A stretch of DNA of 26,507 nucleotides. Origin: a virus. This document shows, piece by piece, positions 3,357 through 21,085 of this stretch. Each line of letters starts with the position of its first letter. Position 1 is the stretch's first letter. A program made the translations under genes and the position numbers. The notes beneath the pieces are model-generated. The model made no database searches and had not been told where the DNA came from. It saw nothing but the letters and a program-made list of their open reading frames with translations. Location: positions 1 to 26,507 of IMG/VR virus record IMGVR_UViG_3300042350_004798. One strand, written 5' to 3'.

Positions 3357-4673
3357 CTAGAATCCTCCATTGTAATTAGTCAACTCCGATCCAACCTTAA
3401 ATTCCCGGTCCCCGGTCGAGTACACAGCACCGCGCCGCATACTTAATTCCGTCTTGCTCATTTCGCCATCGCGAAACTTGGCTATGTAAACATCCATTTT
3501 TTCCGCCGCTCGATCCTCCCGATGCAAAAGCATTACGATATCCGAATCCTCTTCGATCGAACCGGATTCCTTTAAGTGCGATAGCGTTGGGGCTTCACCC
3601 TCTGCCGCCCTGCCGACCTGAGCCAATACAACAATCGGTATATTTAACTGCTTGCTCATTCTGCAAATCTCATTGGACACATGCGAGACCTGTAGCCGCC
3701 GGTCGCTGATTTCCCTTGGGGCTTTGATTAGCTGAATATAATCAATCACAACTAGCTTGCATCCTCTTCGAGCAATGTCAGTTCTAATCCTGGATTCAAT
3801 AGCCGCGATGGTAGCCCCTGGTTTATGCCAAAACTCCATCGGACATAAATGGTGGTCCGCTGCAACCTCAAGCATTTCGTTTAGCTGGGCATCCGTGTAG
3901 GTCGATTGGTTGATGTCGCTAGCCTTGAGGCTTGTACCCCTGAGCATGAAACGCAATGCGAACTGCCGAAAGCTCATTTCAAGACTGACGAATAGCGTCG
4001 GCTCGTTTCGGTCCCTTGCTGGCCTCAATGCAATTTCTGCTCCTACTGCCGATTTACCGATCGACGGCCGCGCCCCGATGGTAATGTACCCCGCTGGCAA
4101 TCCACCAAATAGCGATTCATCGAGCCTTTCAATCCCAGTTGCAAAAACCGAAGTTGCTTTAGACTGCCGATTCTCTTCGCATTGCTCCAAGAATTCATCA
4201 AGCACCAAGCCTAGCCGCTTTTGCTCGACGCCTGCCCCGTCGATAATCGTAGACGCCGCCGACATTTCGCCTGCAAACTCAACCGGGTCGAATTCATCGC
4301 CCTCGCATTGCTTCGCTAGATCGTCAATAACGCGCCGAAGCTTTCGCCTCTGAGACGCCTTAGCGACTTGCTCGGCATAGTACTGAACGTGGTGAGGCAT
4401 CCCTTCGGCCATAAGCTCGACGAGCCTAGAAACGCCCCCTACGAGGTCTAACACCTTGATTCGGTCTAGTTCCGCTGCGATGTTCGTAGCGTTGAGCGGT
4501 ACTGCTTTTTTTAGCAAGGCCTGAATCGCGAAGAACACTTGCGAAAAACCGATCGAAACAAAGTCGGTAGCCGTCACGTACTCTTGGGCGATATAAATCG
4601 CCTCAGGCTTGACAATCAGAGCCCCGATTAGGTTTTCTTCGTCCTTGATGCATCGAGCGGTTTTTTCGGTCAT
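3357..4673 (-). CDS. dnaB: DnaB-family replicative helicase
   Basis: 438 aa, near the usual DnaB length. An N-terminal helical domain (ENLIGALIVKPEAI...) is followed by the RecA-like ATPase. The Walker A loop is GARPSIGKS (200-208), SLEMS follows at about 230-234, and Walker B is VVIDYIQLI (308-316). This is the ring helicase that unwinds DNA at the phage fork and pairs with the primase at 11123-11989. Its ATG shares a base with the stop of the loader-like gene (TAATG), a classical loader-helicase arrangement. No truncation seen; no intein here although the P-loop is a frequent intein site. Confidence 0.93.
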   Translation of the reverse strand: MTEKTARCIKDEENLIGALIVKPEAIYIAQEYVTATDFVSIGFSQVFFAIQALLKKAVPLNATNIAAELDRIKVLDLVGGVSRLVELMAEGMPHHVQYYAEQVAKASQRRKLRRVIDDLAKQCEGDEFDPVEFAGEMSAASTIIDGAGVEQKRLGLVLDEFLEQCEENRQSKATSVFATGIERLDESLFGGLPAGYITIGARPSIGKSAVGAEIALRPARDRNEPTLFVSLEMSFRQFALRFMLRGTSLKASDINQSTYTDAQLNEMLEVAADHHLCPMEFWHKPGATIAAIESRIRTDIARRGCKLVVIDYIQLIKAPREISDRRLQVSHVSNEICRMSKQLNIPIVVLAQVGRAAEGEAPTLSHLKESGSIEEDSDIVMLLHREDRAAEKMDVYIAKFRDGEMSKTELSMRRGAVYSTGDREFKVGSELTNYNGGF

Positions 4674-5569
4674 TAGTATTTCCTCAGGTTCGCGTAGGGG
4701 TCGACCTTCGGTTTATCCGGCTTGGCCCTTGGGTCTACGTGGCTCGGCTTGATACCCTGCCATTCGTTCGCCGTTGTGAGGTTGATACATGCCAGCAAGT
4801 GATCCCGATCGCGGTAGGCTTGGTCCCAGCCACGGCAGACGTTGCCTCTGTCGCGGATTGGATGCCCGATGTTTCTCCGCATTCGCTCCCAGGCTTCGAG
4901 GGCTTCGCGCACCTCGGGAGAGTCTAGCCTTGGGGGGATGTCGAATTGGCCGATTGTCTCTTTTGGCTTTCGAGGTTCCTTTGGTGGCTTAGCTGACGGC
5001 GTAGTTGCCGCTGGGTCTGGTTTCGGATCTTCTTTTGGTGGCTCGACCGTTCCCCCTGAGGGGGGTAAGGGGGGTTTTAAAAATAACGAATCAGAATCCG
5101 AAACAGAATCCGAAACCGTAACCCCCGGTTTTTGTTCGCCGTTTGTTCGAGGTTTGTTCGCCGTTTGTTCCGTTTTTGCTTTCGGTTTGCTTCCGGCTTC
5201 GCTGCGCATTTGCGATATCTCCCCGAGCCTAGCCATCCGTCGAGAATACAAAACGCCCCTTGAATCCCTGGATAAAACGCCTTTTCTTTCGAGCTCCTCA
5301 ATCGCTTTTACCTTCTCGGAACGGTCCCCGCCTGAAACCGCGTCGGCGATATCTTCGTTTGACCTTGGCGATCCGTCCGGCCAAATCAGATAGCCCCGCT
5401 CTTTGGACTCGAACATGAAGCAAAGCAAATCGACTAACAAACCCCGAGCAAAAATGGAACAAAACCGCAACTCAGGATCTTTAAGCCAATCGCCCGTAAA
5501 AAACCAGAACCCAGGTGATTTTGCCCCAGGGCTTTTTCGCTTTCCGCTGCCGTCGTCGCTGCCGCTCAT
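4673..5569 (-). CDS. Replisome organiser / helicase-loader-like protein
   Basis: 298 aa. The ATG (MSGSDDGSGKRKSPG) follows AGGGA at good spacing; a TTG 18 bases upstream is the alternative. The N-terminus (PGFWFFTGDWLKDPELRFCS, then ARGLLVDLLCFMFES, and EELERKGVLSRDSRG) matches the winged-helix domain of phage replication-organiser proteins. The middle is a Pro/Lys/Ser-rich linker of about 100 residues. The C-terminal part (SPEVREALEAWERMRR...) is helical. Overlap with dnaB supports a role in loading the helicase. The exact biochemistry is inferred. Confidence 0.75.
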   Translation of the reverse strand: MSGSDDGSGKRKSPGAKSPGFWFFTGDWLKDPELRFCSIFARGLLVDLLCFMFESKERGYLIWPDGSPRSNEDIADAVSGGDRSEKVKAIEELERKGVLSRDSRGVLYSRRMARLGEISQMRSEAGSKPKAKTEQTANKPRTNGEQKPGVTVSDSVSDSDSLFLKPPLPPSGGTVEPPKEDPKPDPAATTPSAKPPKEPRKPKETIGQFDIPPRLDSPEVREALEAWERMRRNIGHPIRDRGNVCRGWDQAYRDRDHLLACINLTTANEWQGIKPSHVDPRAKPDKPKVDPYANLRKY

Positions 5570-6224: not shown

Positions 6225-7523
6225 TCAAAACAAACTCAACTGCCTTGGCTTCTCAGCCTCAGCGGAAATTCTAGCTCTAGCGATCTCGATGTATTCAGCC
6301 TCGCGTTCAATGCCGATGAACCGAAAGCCCTCTGCCATCGCCGCCTTTCCGGTCGATCCTGAGCCCGTGAAGGGGTCTAGAATGATGCCGTTTGGCGGTG
6401 TGATAAGTCGGCATAGGTAGCGCATTAGGTCGGTAGGTTTGACTGTTGGATGAGGATTGTGACGCATAACTGCCGCCATAGGGTCGGATTCGCTAAACCC
6501 TCGCCCGCTGTCGTTTTTGATTCCCGCCTCAGTCGGCTCCAACGCCCCACACCCTTCGTCCCGGTCGTCGCGGCTTGCTTTAGCACAATAGAAAAATCGT
6601 GCTGCGCTGCCGGTGTCGCCGTAGCTTGGAGCCTGTTCTACCGATCCCCATCCACCGCTGTATCCGTTTTCGCCTTTGCGCCCGTTGCTCTTTGCGCCGT
6701 CGGCGTCAGGAAACAACGCCAGCACCTCCTCGCTGCCATCGTGCGTAAAATTAGCCGGGAAACGGCCCTCGGGTGGCGTGACGTTGCCTCCGTTTGTCGA
6801 AACGTAGTCTTTCATCTGGTAAGTATTTCCCGTCCCCAGGCGGTTACCGCTGCCGCATGGCGTTTCCCCGTTCGCCTCCACCCTGCACCCATCAATATTC
6901 AGCCCGCCCGTTCCGTGTTCGAGTACGTTGGCTGCAACGGTCCTGATAGGGGGCTTGCGAAACAGCCACCATTCTTCAGCAGCCGGTTTTAATGCTGTCC
7001 CCCATCCTCCCCATTGCTTAGCCGCTTCGGTAGATGGAATCGAAGTGTAGGCATTCCGACCTGATTCATCCCCCCAAGTACCACCACCGTCTCGCTTACC
7101 GTTTTCGAGGCGTAGCAGTCGATCACCCCCTCGTTTGAGTGGGCCAACCTCACGTTCTGCCCCTGCCGCCTTGTCGATCGCTTTCGATACGTCGAGGCTT
7201 TTAGGAAACCCCGAGCCAAAAACGTGGTAGATTTTATCCCTTGGCTGCCATCCCGCGTCCTCCCACGCCGTCCCGGTCCAGTGGCTAGTCCGAGGAATCG
7301 CCCATACCAACGCATGGCCTCCGGGCTTGATTACCCGCAGGCATTGATCGGCAACTGATTGCATCCATTGAATCCAGTCGGCTTTGCCGCCCTTGTCCCG
7401 GTCCCACTCGCGGTTCATGAACGCGATTCCCGCAGGAGGATCCGTCACAATCGCATCGACCGAGCAATCCGCAAGGGTCTTGAGTACGTCGAGGCAATCG
7501 CCCTGGTGTAGTTCAAATTTCAT
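6225..7523 (-). CDS. Beta-class DNA N4/N6 methyltransferase
   Basis: 432 aa. Motif IV, TDPPAG (27-32), comes near the N-terminus, and the SAM-binding motif I, DPFTGSGSTG (383-392), near the C-terminus, followed by GFRFIGIEREAEYIEIA. This order defines the beta class, as in CcrM-like enzymes. The DPPA variant has Ala where DPPY/DPPW is usual. PHPTVKPTDLMRYLCRLI just before motif I is typical. The middle is long and Gly-rich (GGGTWGDESGRN, GSGNRLGTGNTY). It probably methylates adenine or cytosine in phage DNA to evade host restriction; no partner endonuclease is visible. Confidence 0.9.
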   Translation of the reverse strand: MKFELHQGDCLDVLKTLADCSVDAIVTDPPAGIAFMNREWDRDKGGKADWIQWMQSVADQCLRVIKPGGHALVWAIPRTSHWTGTAWEDAGWQPRDKIYHVFGSGFPKSLDVSKAIDKAAGAEREVGPLKRGGDRLLRLENGKRDGGGTWGDESGRNAYTSIPSTEAAKQWGGWGTALKPAAEEWWLFRKPPIRTVAANVLEHGTGGLNIDGCRVEANGETPCGSGNRLGTGNTYQMKDYVSTNGGNVTPPEGRFPANFTHDGSEEVLALFPDADGAKSNGRKGENGYSGGWGSVEQAPSYGDTGSAARFFYCAKASRDDRDEGCGALEPTEAGIKNDSGRGFSESDPMAAVMRHNPHPTVKPTDLMRYLCRLITPPNGIILDPFTGSGSTGKAAMAEGFRFIGIEREAEYIEIARARISAEAEKPRQLSLF

Positions 7524-12891: not shown

Positions 12892-13174
12892 TTTGAGCTT
12901 CCAATTGTTTGAGTTTCGGTTGTAGTTGTTCCAACGAGGATCGCAGTTTTCTGCGATCCTCGATTTCCTGCTTCCTGGCTTTCTTTAGGCGTTGCACCGG
13001 TACAAAGAGCTTTTGGCCTTCGTCCAAAGCTCTTTGCAATACCACCGCCATGAGATCCTCGACTGTGCAATCCAGTTGGATTGCCAGCGTCTTGATACCC
13101 GTGACCAACTGCTCGGGCAGTCGGTTCACGGTCAAAGCTCTAGTGCTTAGTTTTGTGGGGTCGCTTGTTGCCAC
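12884..13174 (-). CDS. Ribbon-helix-helix-type protein with coiled-coil tail
   Basis: 96 aa from a GTG preceded by AGGAGG. Its first 35 bases overlap the end of the Snf2 gene. LSTRALTVNRLPEQLVTGIK then TLAIQLDCTVEDLMAVVLQRAL has the strand-helix-helix order of RHH DNA-binding proteins. The tail (LKKARKQEIEDRRKLRSSLE...) is a charged coiled coil. Hairpins at 12935-12962 (12 bp, TTTT/AAAA loop), 13003-13036 (13 bp with one bulge) and 13067-13084 (7 bp). Possibly a small regulator. Confidence 0.6.
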   Translation of the reverse strand: MATSDPTKLSTRALTVNRLPEQLVTGIKTLAIQLDCTVEDLMAVVLQRALDEGQKLFVPVQRLKKARKQEIEDRRKLRSSLEQLQPKLKQLEAQNG

Positions 13175-15554
13175 TGAGTAGTCCTCCTGTTTCTGATAAA
13201 AGTAAATCCAACACAGGCATCGTCGCGGCCTGTCGGCCATCGACGATGCTGTTCGCAACCTGTTGCTTGGTCTGAATCGCCTTGCAGATACGTTCTTCGA
13301 CCGTATCTGGCACGACGAGGTAGTAAATGTCGCAGGTTTCCTTCTGGCCGATTCGGTGAACGCGATCTGCTCCTTGGGCCATCACCGCAGGTGTCCACCA
13401 CATCTCGGCGTTGGCAATCGTGCTTGCCGCTGTAAGCGTCAAGCCGACCCCCGCTGCCTTGATGTTCCCAACCAGAAGTCTGCATTGTGGATCGGTCTGA
13501 AACCGATCCACAATGCCCTGTCGTTTCTTCGTCGGAGTCGAGCCGTCGATGACGACGACGTTTTCCTCCGGCAAAATTCTACGCTTGAGAACGTCCACCA
13601 TTTGCGTATGCACCGCAAAAAGGATCAACTTCTCTTTAGAGTTGTCACGGAAAAACTTCCGTGACCAATCCACCACGGCGCGAGCCTTGAGTCGGCTCGT
13701 AAGCCTGAGCAGAATGCCGAGCCGTGTGACGGCTTCGGCTTTCTGCGCGCTGGTGACGCTCCCGTACTTACTGTTCTGAGCCAGCCATCCCATGAAGTCG
13801 GCCTCGGCGGCGTCGAGGTCGCTTCGGTCGTCCAAGTGCAACGGGACGACGATCATCTTCTTCTCGGGGAGGTCGAGTACGTCCTCTTTGAGTCGTCTGA
13901 GCATGAAGGGTTTGATCTTCTCATGGAGTTCCCCCAAGTTGGTCGCGCCCTTGTATTCCCACCCCCAATGCGTCTTACGAGGCTCGCAGTAGCGAGTCGC
14001 GTAAGCCTGCCAAGCAGGGAATAGCTCAGGTCGAATGATGTTCAGGATCGGCCAGAAGTCGGCAGGCCGGTTCATCACCGGCGTGCCTGACATTCCGATC
14101 ACCTTGGTCGTCAGACGGCTAAGGTACTTAGCCGCCTTGGTCCGCTTGCTGGCCCGGTTGCTGAGGTTGTGGACCTCGTCAAAAGCGATGCACTTCCACT
14201 GATAGCGGCCAAGTAGTGGCCGCTGGTCGTAGAGGATGTCGTAGTTGACGATCACCGCCTTGGGCAGTTCGTCGGGCAGAGTCGCAAGCGACTTGCCCTC
14301 GACGACCAACGAGTCGGCATCAGCCCACATCTTGAGTTCGCGCTGCCAGTTTCCCTTTAGGGAAGCTGGGCAGACGATCAGTAGGGGCCAGAGACTTTGG
14401 CGAGCAGCCAAAGTCGCGACTTGGGCAGTGTTGTGCGTCAATATGTACTGATCTGTCACATACAACTTGTCCTCGGCGGCCACGCTGATGCAATACGAAT
14501 CTGCCGGACACTCCAAGCGTTCTATGCTAACCAACCTGCGACTAGGCAATGCCCTCGGGCCTGGGACATATCTGCCAGCCTTTCGGATAACACTAAATGG
14601 GAGGATGCCCGCAGGGAGTCGCAAACATACACAAAACTCTATAGGCTTCCCTTGGTGGCTTCTATCGTATTGATGGAGTGTTGCCACCCCACCTAAACTT
14701 TGAACAAGAGTCACTATATCCCTAGCTAGTCTTGGGGAAATTGTGGAATAGCTTAGCCTGTTTCGTGTTTTGGATATGCTACCATCACAATCCATCAATC
14801 CTTGCAGAAGGCTTATTCGATCCTTAGCCGATGCTTCTAGGTATACCTTAGGTATGAATTTATCCACGCTCTTGCAGTTGAGTTCAAGTTGCTCTACGGA
14901 ATCTCGTAGTGCTACTCTGTAACCTATGCGAGTTACAGTGCCTCGTGTCTCGACATTGCCCTGGAATACATTCCCAGTCGCATCGCCAGACAATCGTTGT
15001 TGCACACAAGGCCAATCTACAGTACCTACAGTCAATACCATCTGCCTACCGCCCAAACTCCCGTTTGCTATTAAGCATCCAAGGAAATACGGGTCTATTG
15101 GTAGTTCTGATTGTGTTTGTGTGCCCACAAATGGATTTGTAAGCATCGGAAGGTAGTAGGTTTTCTTGGTTGTTTCGAGATCATCGAGGAACTCCAAAGT
15201 AGTTTTAACCACTCTGGTTTTTGCTTTTCCGCCTTTCCAATAATCCATTGCCCACAGATGCTCTGGCCCTGCTTCGCAGGTAGAGCCATCATTGAATGTG
15301 AGTCTATAGACATCCTTTACGCCTTGCGGAAAGACTCCTGTAACCTCAGTAAAGTCGCCGTTTGATCCGACAACTCTATCTCCAACTTGCAGACGGCCTA
15401 TTGGAAGCCACCCATTGTTGGTCAATACGAGGGAGTACCAGGGTTGTTGTTTTCCCAAGCCCTGCTCGTCTGCAAGTAGAATTCCGCCGTGGACTTTCGC
15501 CATAAAGTCCACGCCTTGTTCTTGGTAGGGGAACAGTTTTTGCTTGGTAGCCAT
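13140..15554 (-). CDS. Snf2-family DNA helicase/translocase interrupted by an intein
   Basis: 804 aa precursor; 464 aa after splicing. Helicase motif I is split, DEQGLGK (29-35) rejoining Thr376. The DEAH-box equivalent is FDEVH (458-462), GMSGTP lies at about 487-492, and motif VI is QGADRVHRIGQ (727-737). SWI2/SNF2 proteins use ATP to move along duplex DNA; phage copies are thought to act in replication, recombination or displacing bound proteins. AGG-containing sequence precedes the ATG. Overlaps the next gene by 35 bases. Function requires splicing, because the ATP-binding loop is broken by the insertion. Confidence 0.92.
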   Translation of the reverse strand: MATKQKLFPYQEQGVDFMAKVHGGILLADEQGLGKQQPWYSLVLTNNGWLPIGRLQVGDRVVGSNGDFTEVTGVFPQGVKDVYRLTFNDGSTCEAGPEHLWAMDYWKGGKAKTRVVKTTLEFLDDLETTKKTYYLPMLTNPFVGTQTQSELPIDPYFLGCLIANGSLGGRQMVLTVGTVDWPCVQQRLSGDATGNVFQGNVETRGTVTRIGYRVALRDSVEQLELNCKSVDKFIPKVYLEASAKDRISLLQGLMDCDGSISKTRNRLSYSTISPRLARDIVTLVQSLGGVATLHQYDRSHQGKPIEFCVCLRLPAGILPFSVIRKAGRYVPGPRALPSRRLVSIERLECPADSYCISVAAEDKLYVTDQYILTHNTAQVATLAARQSLWPLLIVCPASLKGNWQRELKMWADADSLVVEGKSLATLPDELPKAVIVNYDILYDQRPLLGRYQWKCIAFDEVHNLSNRASKRTKAAKYLSRLTTKVIGMSGTPVMNRPADFWPILNIIRPELFPAWQAYATRYCEPRKTHWGWEYKGATNLGELHEKIKPFMLRRLKEDVLDLPEKKMIVVPLHLDDRSDLDAAEADFMGWLAQNSKYGSVTSAQKAEAVTRLGILLRLTSRLKARAVVDWSRKFFRDNSKEKLILFAVHTQMVDVLKRRILPEENVVVIDGSTPTKKRQGIVDRFQTDPQCRLLVGNIKAAGVGLTLTAASTIANAEMWWTPAVMAQGADRVHRIGQKETCDIYYLVVPDTVEERICKAIQTKQQVANSIVDGRQAATMPVLDLLLSETGGLLSGNKRPHKTKH
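13285..15513. repeat. Hairpins in the Snf2 exteins, none in the intein
   Basis: Perfect stems: 13285-13292/13302-13309 (8 bp), 13482-13496/13502-13516 (15 bp, the longest intragenic one), 13644-13652/13657-13665 (9), 14116-14123/14127-14134 (8), 14204-14211/14217-14224 (8), 14393-14401/14407-14415 (9), 15488-15497/15504-15513 (10). Imperfect ones lie at 13681-13699, 13974-14005 and 14046-14069. Inside the intein the best is a 7-bp stem at 14917-14938. Confidence 0.88.
14430..15449 (-). mobile_element. Class 3 intein with LAGLIDADG homing endonuclease
   Basis: 340 residues inserted exactly between Lys and Thr of the Snf2 P-loop GLGK/T. It starts with Gln instead of Cys/Ser/Ala and ends Thr-His-Asn. 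The class 3 W-C-T signature is present: Trp66 in block B (EHLW), Cys320 in block F (SYCISV), Thr338 before the penultimate His. The +1 extein residue is Thr. Two LAGLIDADG-like motifs, LGCLIANG (123-130) and LLQGLMDCDG (214-223), mark the homing endonuclease. Class 3 inteins start splicing at the block F Cys. They are known from Deinococcus Snf2 and mycobacteriophage DnaB. Confidence 0.93.
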
Positions 15555-18863: not shown

Positions 18864-20072
18864 TTACCTGCGAATCCGAGCGTAAACGCATACGCATCCG
18901 TCTTGGTCCACAGGTAGCACACAGCCGCCTCGGGTAGCGAATCTTAGGAGTGTTCGTTCGACGAACTCACCGGTTCGTTCATCCAAAAACTCCACTTGCT
19001 TGCCTTCGTCGCCTGTGTCAACCTCGCGGAACCGAGCCTGCGGAGCAGGCTCGGTGACCTTGATTCGGCAGTATGTCCATGCGAAATTGTTACACGAATA
19101 AGGAAACCCCGATCCGAAATCAATACTTCGCAGAGTGGCTGTTGTCCATCCTTCTTTCTCACAATCGCGTACTTCACACCAGATTGGCCCGTTCTTGAGA
19201 TCTTCGACGGTTGGCGTTCGCCAACCGGTCGAAGTCTGTTCGGGTTCCGGAGCCTGCGGAGCAGGCTCGGTGACCCTGATCCGGCATTGGTTCCAATGCG
19301 GCGGATCGACGTAGAACCTAGTCTGACGCTGGGCCTCAAATCGCCAAGCTCTTGAATTGTGAACACAAACCAAAAACCCTGGTATCCACGGCTCGTCATG
19401 ATAGTCTCGCACTTCGCACGCAATCGGCCCGTCCTTGAGATCTTCGACGGTTGGCGTTCGCCAACCGGTCGAAGTCTGTTCGGGTTCCGGAGCCTGCGGA
19501 GCAGGCTCAGCAATCGCAACACCAACAACCCCGTTTGCGTCAATCATGCTATTGAGCTTGACCGACACTTCGTGTTCTTTTTCCTGTTCGGGTTTCGGAG
19601 ACTTGTCGACGACTTTGACGTGCCACTCAAAAGAAACACTAGCGTTTGGACTGTTTCTTTCGTATGGCCGCTTGGTTGCGTATTCCATGCCGGTTGTGTT
19701 GCGTTTGTTGTTAGGATTGTGTTTCATGCCCACCAGAATACCCTTCCAAGGTTGTTGGTTTCCCCAGTCCGGGTAGATCATGCACTCAATCGGCCCGTTG
19801 TCGAGATCCGAAAACTTCGGATCTCGGAGTACCTGCGTCTTGATTTCGCAGATTTGCCATCGAACGGTTCTGCCCCTCCAAGACGCATCTCCTTCGAGGT
19901 ATCTGATATTCGAGCCGTCTGACTCAAATCCGAAAAGGTAACGCTCTCGCCACATTTGTGGAACGAGGTCGCGGAAGCGAGCCTTTTGAGGCTCGCCGCC
20001 ATTTGCCAGATCAATCAAATCCTGCCGGGTGACGGGACGCCACCCGGTGACGGTCGCATTTTCAATGCTCAT
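18864..20072 (-). CDS. Modular repeat protein (GWR-T-DL repeats)
   Basis: 402 aa. Three copies of a module beginning GWR-P/T-T---DL are seen: GWRPVTRQDLIDL near the start, then TSTGWRTPTVEDLKDGP and TSTGWRTPTVEDLKNGP about 80 residues apart. Each is followed by a strand-rich domain and a linker EPAPQAPEPEQ. The C-terminus (FREVDTGDEGKQVEF) is different. The first module resembles 10386-11123. Function unknown; Pro-rich linkers suggest beads on a string, for example a binding protein. The two inner modules are nearly identical in DNA over 75 bases. Confidence 0.7.
   Translation of the reverse strand: MSIENATVTGWRPVTRQDLIDLANGGEPQKARFRDLVPQMWRERYLFGFESDGSNIRYLEGDASWRGRTVRWQICEIKTQVLRDPKFSDLDNGPIECMIYPDWGNQQPWKGILVGMKHNPNNKRNTTGMEYATKRPYERNSPNASVSFEWHVKVVDKSPKPEQEKEHEVSVKLNSMIDANGVVGVAIAEPAPQAPEPEQTSTGWRTPTVEDLKDGPIACEVRDYHDEPWIPGFLVCVHNSRAWRFEAQRQTRFYVDPPHWNQCRIRVTEPAPQAPEPEQTSTGWRTPTVEDLKNGPIWCEVRDCEKEGWTTATLRSIDFGSGFPYSCNNFAWTYCRIKVTEPAPQARFREVDTGDEGKQVEFLDERTGEFVERTLLRFATRGGCVLPVDQDGCVCVYARIRR
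19194..19508. repeat. 75-bp direct repeat, copies 240 bp apart
   Basis: Bases 19194-19268 and 19434-19508 are identical, with the offset of 240 bases being exactly 80 codons. Each copy contains two inverted repeats: a long one (for example 19202-19216 with 19219-19234, one bulge) and an 8-bp one (19250-19257/19261-19268). A third partial copy, an 11-bp stem at 19031-19041/19045-19055, lies further down the gene. Such identity fits recent in-frame duplication or gene conversion. Confidence 0.9.
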
Positions 20073-20381
20073 AATTTTGCCCTTGTTCGTAAGTTACGCT
20101 TCGTAGAAATCCGCACAAATAACAACACTTTTGCCCCGCATTTGTAGTTTTTCGCAGGTGCTTTGCTTTTCATCAAGCCAAGCAGATTCGCCTTCGTCGC
20201 CCCTGTATGCCGAGGCGAGTGTACGAGCCTCCTTTTCGTTTTTAGCACGAACTACGACTTCTCGTAGTTCGTCGTAGCTGCATTCAGGTTCAGGTCTGTT
20301 CAAAATGTACAGTGGCATGGTTTCCTCCGAAAGTTGTGAAATGTTTCGACTCTGCCCAGGTTCTACGCTCGGCGTAGAACC
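19802..20381. repeat. Further hairpins, 19.8-20.4 kb
   Basis: Perfect stems: 19802-19812/19816-19826 (11 bp), 19977-19984/19989-19996 (8), 20025-20031/20041-20047 (7), 20247-20257/20262-20272 (11) inside the small gene, and 20359-20368/20372-20381 (10) in the leader before that gene. Confidence 0.88.
20094..20318 (-). CDS. Hypothetical small protein
   Basis: 74 aa, MPLYILNRPEPECSYDELRE, then VVVRAKNEKEARTLASAYRG, with GGAGG before the ATG. The pattern of a strand, an Ala-rich helix and a strand (KSVVICADFYEA) is that of a small alpha/beta domain. It is the first gene of the leftward unit below the non-coding region. Not recognised. Confidence 0.65.
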   Translation of the reverse strand: MPLYILNRPEPECSYDELREVVVRAKNEKEARTLASAYRGDEGESAWLDEKQSTCEKLQMRGKSVVICADFYEA

Positions 20382-20403
20382 ATTTCCAAAATAATCTAAC
20401 CCA

Positions 20404-20432
20404 TTGACATGCGATAGGGGTCTGGTTACAAT
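20404..20432 (+). promoter_or_regulatory. Near-consensus sigma-70 promoter
   Basis: TTGACA (20404-20409) and TACAAT (20427-20432) are separated by exactly 17 bases, a perfect -35 and a five-of-six -10. Transcription would start near 20439-20440 and run rightward, first into the hairpin region and, if not terminated, toward PhoH 650 bases away. This is the only promoter in the window I would call with confidence. Confidence 0.75.
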
Positions 20433-20439
20433 TTACGGC

Positions 20440-20624
20440 ATCTCGTAGGGCCAACTCGGTCGCTAGATGGGTTCGCTGGCCTGATTCCTTAGGGAATTGC
20501 AGGGCCACTGCTAAACAGGGAGCAAGTAAGCGTGATGCCGAAAGCCTCGGAATGCCTGTGTACGATAAGCGATCTACGAGAAAGAAACGTGACCGAAGGG
20601 CGTTGCAACGCCCTTCGGTCTTTT
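20440..20624 (+). ncRNA. Candidate small RNA with own promoter and terminator
   Basis: About 185 nt from the predicted start to the T-run of the terminator. No convincing ORF lies here. The 5' end TCTCGTAG (20441-20448) can pair with CTACGAGA (20574-20581) just before the terminator. GGCCA/TGGCC (20449-20453/20477-20481) and ATTCC/GGAAT near 20484 give internal stems. No known RNA family was recognised; group I intron, tmRNA and tRNA motifs were looked for and not found. It may be a regulatory RNA or an attenuated leader for the rightward operon. Confidence 0.45.
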
Positions 20625-20662
20625 CGCGTTTCGCAACAAAAACACGTTTCTTTCTCGTAGAT
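20572..20662. repeat. 20-bp perfect inverted repeat around the terminator
   Basis: 20572-20591 is the exact reverse complement of 20643-20662, with 51 bases between, which include the terminator stem. The outer stem can form only in RNA that has passed the terminator. Its left arm shares CTACGAGA with the partner of the transcript's 5' end, so three segments compete for pairing. Confidence 0.9.
20591..20624 (+). terminator. Intrinsic terminator, 14-bp stem
   Basis: 20591-20604 pairs perfectly with 20607-20620 (GACCGAAGGGCGTT), leaving a two-base centre, so the working loop is TGCA or similar. TTTT follows at once, then CGCG. The T-run is short, so read-through may be substantial. It lies about 150 bases after the promoter and inside a larger 20-bp inverted repeat. 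Confidence 0.6.
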
Positions 20663-21085
20663 AAACGACGAGCTATTCGTAACAAAACTCAATACGCTGG
20701 CCCCCACTACGGAGGGCAGGCTACTCCACCGAACAGGCGGTGGCAGGTAAACTTCGGTACGGCGAAAGGGGCACTGCCTACTAGGCAGTTCCACGCAACG
20801 GGTGGGTGGTCGATCCCACAATAAGAACAACGCCGTGGTCACTCTCTGATTCCAGATAAACCAAAAGCCCTGCCGGTGGTTCCCAAACACCGGAAGAAAC
20901 CGTACCGAGAGCCATAAGTAACCAGCGTCCCCCTAGCGGGGAACTTGATTTCCTTCTGTATGGTGGGGAATCAGGAGGGATGTTCGTTTGGCTTTTTCCG
21001 AACTTGGCAGGAAGTTTTCCTGCCGCTCGAAGTCGGCTACAATGGTGGGCAGTCTTGCCCACCACTCTTACCTAGAAAGCCAAAA
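20663..21085 (+). other. Gene-free leader region with foldable sequence before PhoH
   Basis: No coding frame is convincing here. CGGTACGG (20755-20762) can pair with CCGTACCG (20900-20907), enclosing ACTGCCT/AGGCAGT (20773-20779/20783-20789) and CCGGTG/CACCGG (20873-20878/20888-20893). CCACCG/CGGTGG (20726-20731/20738-20743) lies just outside. TCCCC/GGGGA follows at 20928-20942. Nearer the gene are an 8-bp stem (21006-21013/21017-21024) and a 9-bp stem (21043-21051/21056-21064). The density suggests a structured 5' leader, but no riboswitch class was recognised. Confidence 0.4.

Follow-up and report, generated by a model that had tools for sequence, protein, structure and literature searches.

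To our knowledge, very few structured phage RNAs of very large size have been described (GOLLD and ROOL), and what they do is unsolved. The name ROOL stands for Rumen-Originating, Ornate, Large, and members are often encoded near tRNA islands, a proximity that is not obligatory for the ROOL and GOLLD families. Many GOLLD members are longer than 800 nt, and OLE (Ornate, Large, Extremophilic) is likewise a large ornate noncoding RNA. ROOL is encoded by phages and its function is unsolved, although the structure of a 659-nt example has been solved and shows an elaborate multibranch architecture; GOLLD is a large noncoding phage RNA, also of unsolved function, with conserved and variable parts, and both RNAs form RNA-only multimers (PMC12286853). 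OLE RNA occurs in extremophilic Gram-positive bacteria (PMC11332333). The locus described here lies in a 26,507-nt stretch of an IMG/VR virus record (the window), which contains replication genes of phage type. We consider it likely that the product of this locus is a structured noncoding RNA of ~550 nt that stands alone, belonging to a class absent from Rfam and transcribed from its own sigma-70 promoter (Table 1). The RNA would resemble ROOL in being phage-encoded, of similar size and multibranched, and GOLLD in being a large phage noncoding RNA with conserved and variable parts, while it falls into about the same length class as OLE RNA. It differs from each of them in having no Rfam match, from ROOL also in the absence of tRNA genes from the window, from GOLLD in being shorter than the many members above 800 nt and in having no tRNA genes nearby, and from OLE RNA in that the hosts of the latter are extremophilic Gram-positive bacteria. 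An ordinary phage small RNA with an intrinsic terminator would share the sigma-70 promoter and the stem followed by TTTT, but the stem in the window is predicted to lie inside a longer conserved fold, as one of its arms.

No Rfam 15 family reached its gathering score in the whole window, and the ROOL, GOLLD and OLE models did not appear even at E values up to 10 in the window or in two contigs carrying homologues of the RNA (L122 and L136). The best sub-threshold Rfam matches in these three sequences were at chance level, as they covered little sequence or owed their score to the long arm of the fold; the weak match to MIR6027 (E = 0.085) was rejected, as it is explained by the long A/U-rich arm. 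Neither the window nor the related contigs L005 to L009 contained tRNA genes. Judged by its predicted fold, the RNA is of a similar kind to GOLLD and ROOL, and by covariance model it is a member of neither.

The RNA lies in an intergenic gap of 767 nt (20319-21085), a length that follows from the PhoH start at ATG 21086, in a region where the gene map is crude and starts are approximate. The sequence-only reading had described about 150 bases followed by a terminator; this anatomy did not hold, since the gap and the RNA are far longer and the presumed terminator hairpin belongs to an internal arm. The promoter it had proposed was confirmed at the same position and is conserved in relatives. 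By itself the pattern match is weak, because TTGACA-N16..18-TANNNT, found once in the whole window against 0.22 expected in shuffles, was present at least once in 19 of 100 shuffled sequences. In the alignments the promoter is kept despite divergence of the spacer, with 17-nt spacing in each homologue: the equivalent is TTGACA-N17-TAAAAT in L122 and L124 and, as read from the alignment, TTGACT-N17-TAGAAT in L136. No ORF is conserved over the length of the RNA region, the ORFs of three lineages share short stretches only, and none of the ORFs in this region has a Pfam or PHROG match. A host-type (sigma-70) promoter would drive the RNA in the direction of phoH, within a slot that is filled by other cassettes in related phages.

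Table 1. Features of the RNA locus upstream of phoH (positions in the window).
Feature	Position	Strand	Basis or remark
Upstream ORF	20094-20318	-	left border of the gap
Swapped segment	20369-21009		in window and L006; replaced in L005 by polymerase-like + HNH gene pair
Sigma-70-type promoter TTGACA-N17-TACAAT	20404-20432	+	hexamer pattern match; predicted transcription start ~20438-20441
Large structured noncoding RNA, ~550 nt (predicted 3' end)	~20439-20990	+	folding z, homologues, covariation
5' domain, including the nearly invariant blocks CTCGGTnGCTAGATGGG, CTGCTAAACAGGGAGC, CGAAAGCCTCGG, GCCTGTGTACGATAAGC	20449-20560	+	alignment
5' domain helices	20478-20481/20503-20506; 20508-20510/20516-20518; 20529-20531/20537-20539	+	pair counts
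Closing helix GCCUG/CAGGC, invariant	20554-20558 with 20717-20721 (span 20554-20721)	+	encloses presumed terminator
Long arm	20574-20660	+	outer stem 20574-20590/20644-20660, inner stem 20591-20603/20608-20620
Hairpin adjoining domain III	20724-20731/20738-20746	+	5 of 8 pairs covary
3' multibranch domain (domain III)	20753-20909	+	closing helix 20753-20762/20900-20909
Domain III inner helices	20769-20772/20867-20870; 20791-20795/20834-20838	+	
Domain III hairpins	20774-20779/20783-20788; 20802-20806/20815-20819; 20873-20878/20888-20893	+	
3' hairpin region, hairpins variable	20928-20985	+	possible long-range helix back to 20469-20472 (candidate)
phoH -10-like box TACAAT	21038-21043	+	followed by conserved leader up to 21085
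phoH gene, 208 aa	21086-21712	+	PF02562, E = 3.7e-37; constant neighbour of the RNA

The segment 20433-21090 folds with a z-score of -9.5 (20 shuffles), and the homologues in L122 and L136 have folding z-scores of -6.0 and -4.3, respectively. By counting pairs over four distinct sequences, 98.8% of cells were paired among the 41 pairs of domain III and its adjoining hairpin (20724-20746), and 16 pairs were double-changed. When the partner strand was slid by 1-3 columns, only 33-46% of cells remained paired with 0-2 double changes, and none of 500 shuffles matched the observed number of double changes. The long arm with its tip was paired in 100% of cells and contained 6 double-changed pairs, whereas the 5' domain hardly varies and has 10 counted pairs, 2 of them double-changed. 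The variable cells tallied across these three sets of counts comprised 7 G.U and 1 A.C, so an RNA of the + strand is favoured. The structures were partly derived from the same sequences, which represent three independent lineages; nevertheless, such derivation bias alone can hardly account for 24 double-changed pairs spread over separate helices. Comparison across related phages, which had been suggested as a check, gave compensatory changes above the controls in three lineages, and this covariation supports the functional RNA that had been suspected behind the strong promoter. Between the window and L122, the nucleotide identity of the RNA is 79% over 563 columns, whereas phoH is nucleotide-alignable over 117 nt only, with 70% identity; the RNA is thus better conserved than the alignable piece of phoH. 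At the 3' end, the L136 copy has a strong hairpin followed by TTT and the L122 copy a T-rich stretch, and no convincing intrinsic terminator was found near 20990 in the window copy. A 5' closing helix (CGGCATC/GATGCCG), convincing in the fold of the window, was dropped as it is kept by neither L122 nor L136.

A search with PhoH yielded two contigs with an identical protein (L005 and L006) and three with 86% identity (L007 to L009). The same element is present in L006 at 99%, and the differences include two A-to-G changes in the long arm, both of which leave G.U pairs. Searching with the neighbouring 271-aa protein gave L122 (61 kb), L124 (47 kb) and L123 (10 kb); the homologue of the RNA is full in the first two, with 79% identity, and partial in L123. 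A divergent homologue in L136, with local identity of 72-84%, was found by a pattern from a conserved block; there, PhoH and the RNA are followed by relatives of the 402-aa protein and then of the 271-aa protein, which is the same order. In the window, L006, L122/L124 and L136, the RNA is located upstream of and co-directional with phoH and is flanked by the same genes. The identity of L005 to the window, near-complete on both sides, stops at 20368 and resumes at 21010, and the slot between is occupied by a 1.84-kb cassette with a 367-aa gene and an HNH gene. The same gene pair is present in L007 (where the first protein has 378 aa) and L121; its positions are 3079-4565 in L005, 2936-4482 in L007 and 1-1150 in L121. 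The 367-aa protein, after which the HNH protein is encoded, has a polymerase-like 'HDE' motif and no Pfam or PDB match. The comparisons demonstrate that the predicted RNA structure and the promoter are conserved, that no reading frame is, and that close relatives lack the element, and from these results we infer that the RNA would be transcribed during infection and accumulate as one molecule of ~550 nt.

In 833 kb of fetched loci, the covariance model of the RNA (R1) recovered the known members, and no other sequence scored above 10.4 bits. Cultured phages and plasmids gave chance matches in BLASTN (E ~0.7) or none, and the 17-mer ACTGCTAAACAGGGAGC had 11 matches in GTDB genomes, all of them unrelated; at the sensitivity used, no member of the RNA was detected in any of these three collections. 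A first pattern scan with CAGGGAGCAAGTAAGC returned mostly chance matches in protein-coding sequence, L109 was rejected because its match fell by chance within a coding gene, and two further scans of viral contigs revealed no new member.

The hairpin once read as a terminator is real: 20591-20605/20606-20620 is a perfect inverted repeat followed by TTTT. Its T-run is interrupted (TTTTCGCGTTTCG), the hairpin is nested in a second perfect inverted repeat of 20 bp (20572-20591/20643-20662), and structure and conservation extend ~370 nt beyond it. In the predicted fold, hairpin 20591-20620 is the distal part of the long internal arm, and the transcript must continue past it because the GCCUG/CAGGC helix closes around it. 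That the hairpin forms the 3' end of a short stand-alone RNA (~185 nt), possibly beside a read-through long form, is therefore an unlikely reading, although the strong stem with TTTT speaks for it, as does the tail TCTTTTCGCGTTTCG after the inner stem, which is identical in the window and L122 even though the stem covaries. A similar tail, TTTTCGCTTTT, follows other hairpins in relatives, such as that at ~4615-4650 in L005, and the conserved TCTTTTCGCGTTTCG could mean some termination near 20625. Against the short RNA, sequence 3' of the hairpin is needed for the 20-bp outer arm as well as for the invariant closing helix, and the strongest covariation lies downstream of it. Moreover, the arm is replaced in L136 by a different hairpin lacking the T-run, so a terminator stem with a U-tract is not conserved as the 3' end of the RNA. 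Conservation of promoter and stem in relatives was accordingly found in part: the promoter is present in L006, L122/L124 and L136 and the stem covaries in L122, but L136 has another hairpin.

The sequence-only reading had left the choice between a stand-alone RNA and a leader of the PhoH operon, of which the former is favoured. A cis-acting leader or attenuator controlling the phoH operon would fit the constant position of the RNA upstream of and co-directional with phoH, but we regard it as very improbable, because a -10-like box and leader belonging to phoH itself are conserved in 8 of 8 contigs examined whatever stands upstream, with the RNA present or absent, and because the RNA is missing from relatives whose phoH is nearly identical. 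In L005, the PhoH protein is identical in sequence and a protein-coding cassette stands in place of the RNA, and in L008 and L009 the candidate RNA is another one, encoded on the opposite strand. A phoH leader or riboswitch would lie between the phoH promoter and phoH and co-occur with the gene; here the -10-like box is downstream of the RNA, and some phoH-bearing relatives are without it. Just as improbable is a selfish or catalytic RNA (intron-like or another ribozyme) inserted between genes: a discrete segment with a large complex fold is swapped between relatives, and the genome has other mobile elements (a LAGLIDADG insert), but no Rfam intron or ribozyme family matches, no gene is interrupted, and the position and own promoter are constant in three lineages. 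The long perfect inverted repeats could also belong to an origin of replication or a site for packaging, with hairpins that function in DNA form. Such a DNA-level element is the least credible of these readings, given the excess of G.U over A.C in variable pairs, the conserved promoter, the multibranch architecture and the absence from closely related phages.

As for the function of the stand-alone RNA, we tentatively hypothesize, at clearly less than even confidence and by analogy of size and complexity alone, that it may act in trans as a scaffold, by itself or with a protein, forming a GOLLD/ROOL-like particle, instead of working through base-pairing or serving as a leader. Somewhat more doubtful still is the broader proposal of an undescribed class of giant phage RNA that would assemble into a particle by itself or with a phage protein such as PhoH, in a slot that exchanges unrelated large RNAs (on the + strand here and a ~700-nt candidate on the - strand in L008/L009) and the polymerase-like and HNH gene pair. 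If this were true, the large RNAs in the phoH slot would be interchangeable accessory machines. A further large-RNA class with a locus, a promoter, a consensus structure and relatives with and without the RNA would offer a comparative handle on its role in phages.

A second candidate large noncoding RNA of ~727 nt was observed in the same slot upstream of phoH at 4170-4925 of L008 (- strand), and the same in L009. It is preceded by the promoter sequence TTGACA-N17-TAAACT and followed by a strong hairpin and 7-8 consecutive T; since either strand gives a good fold (z about -5), its strand rests on the promoter and terminator. It has no Rfam match at threshold. Homology to the window RNA was rejected, as the two are not alignable and the covariance model R1 gives no match; the similar first bases, TTACGGCATCTCG in the window RNA and TTCGGCATGTTCG in the candidate, are possibly due to chance. 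A second candidate in this position suggests that a systematic search of the slot in related phages could yield more. Also upstream of phoH, L007 has ~6 tandem copies of a ~32-nt repeat, gcgcaacctcactacgttcggttgccatat, at 4585-4765. Elsewhere in the window, a direct repeat with a 240-nt period (19164-19545) lies inside the 402-aa ORF, whose protein length varies among relatives, and a DNA methyltransferase gene (6225-7523, - strand) matches its family in two stretches, suggesting a large internal insert. An SNF2-type helicase (13140-15554, - strand) carries a LAGLIDADG-type insert at residues ~36-374, which is present in the L005 genome. The L007 to L009 genomes lack it and have the residues from its two sides next to each other, and L006 apparently lacks it too; the insert is probably an intein.
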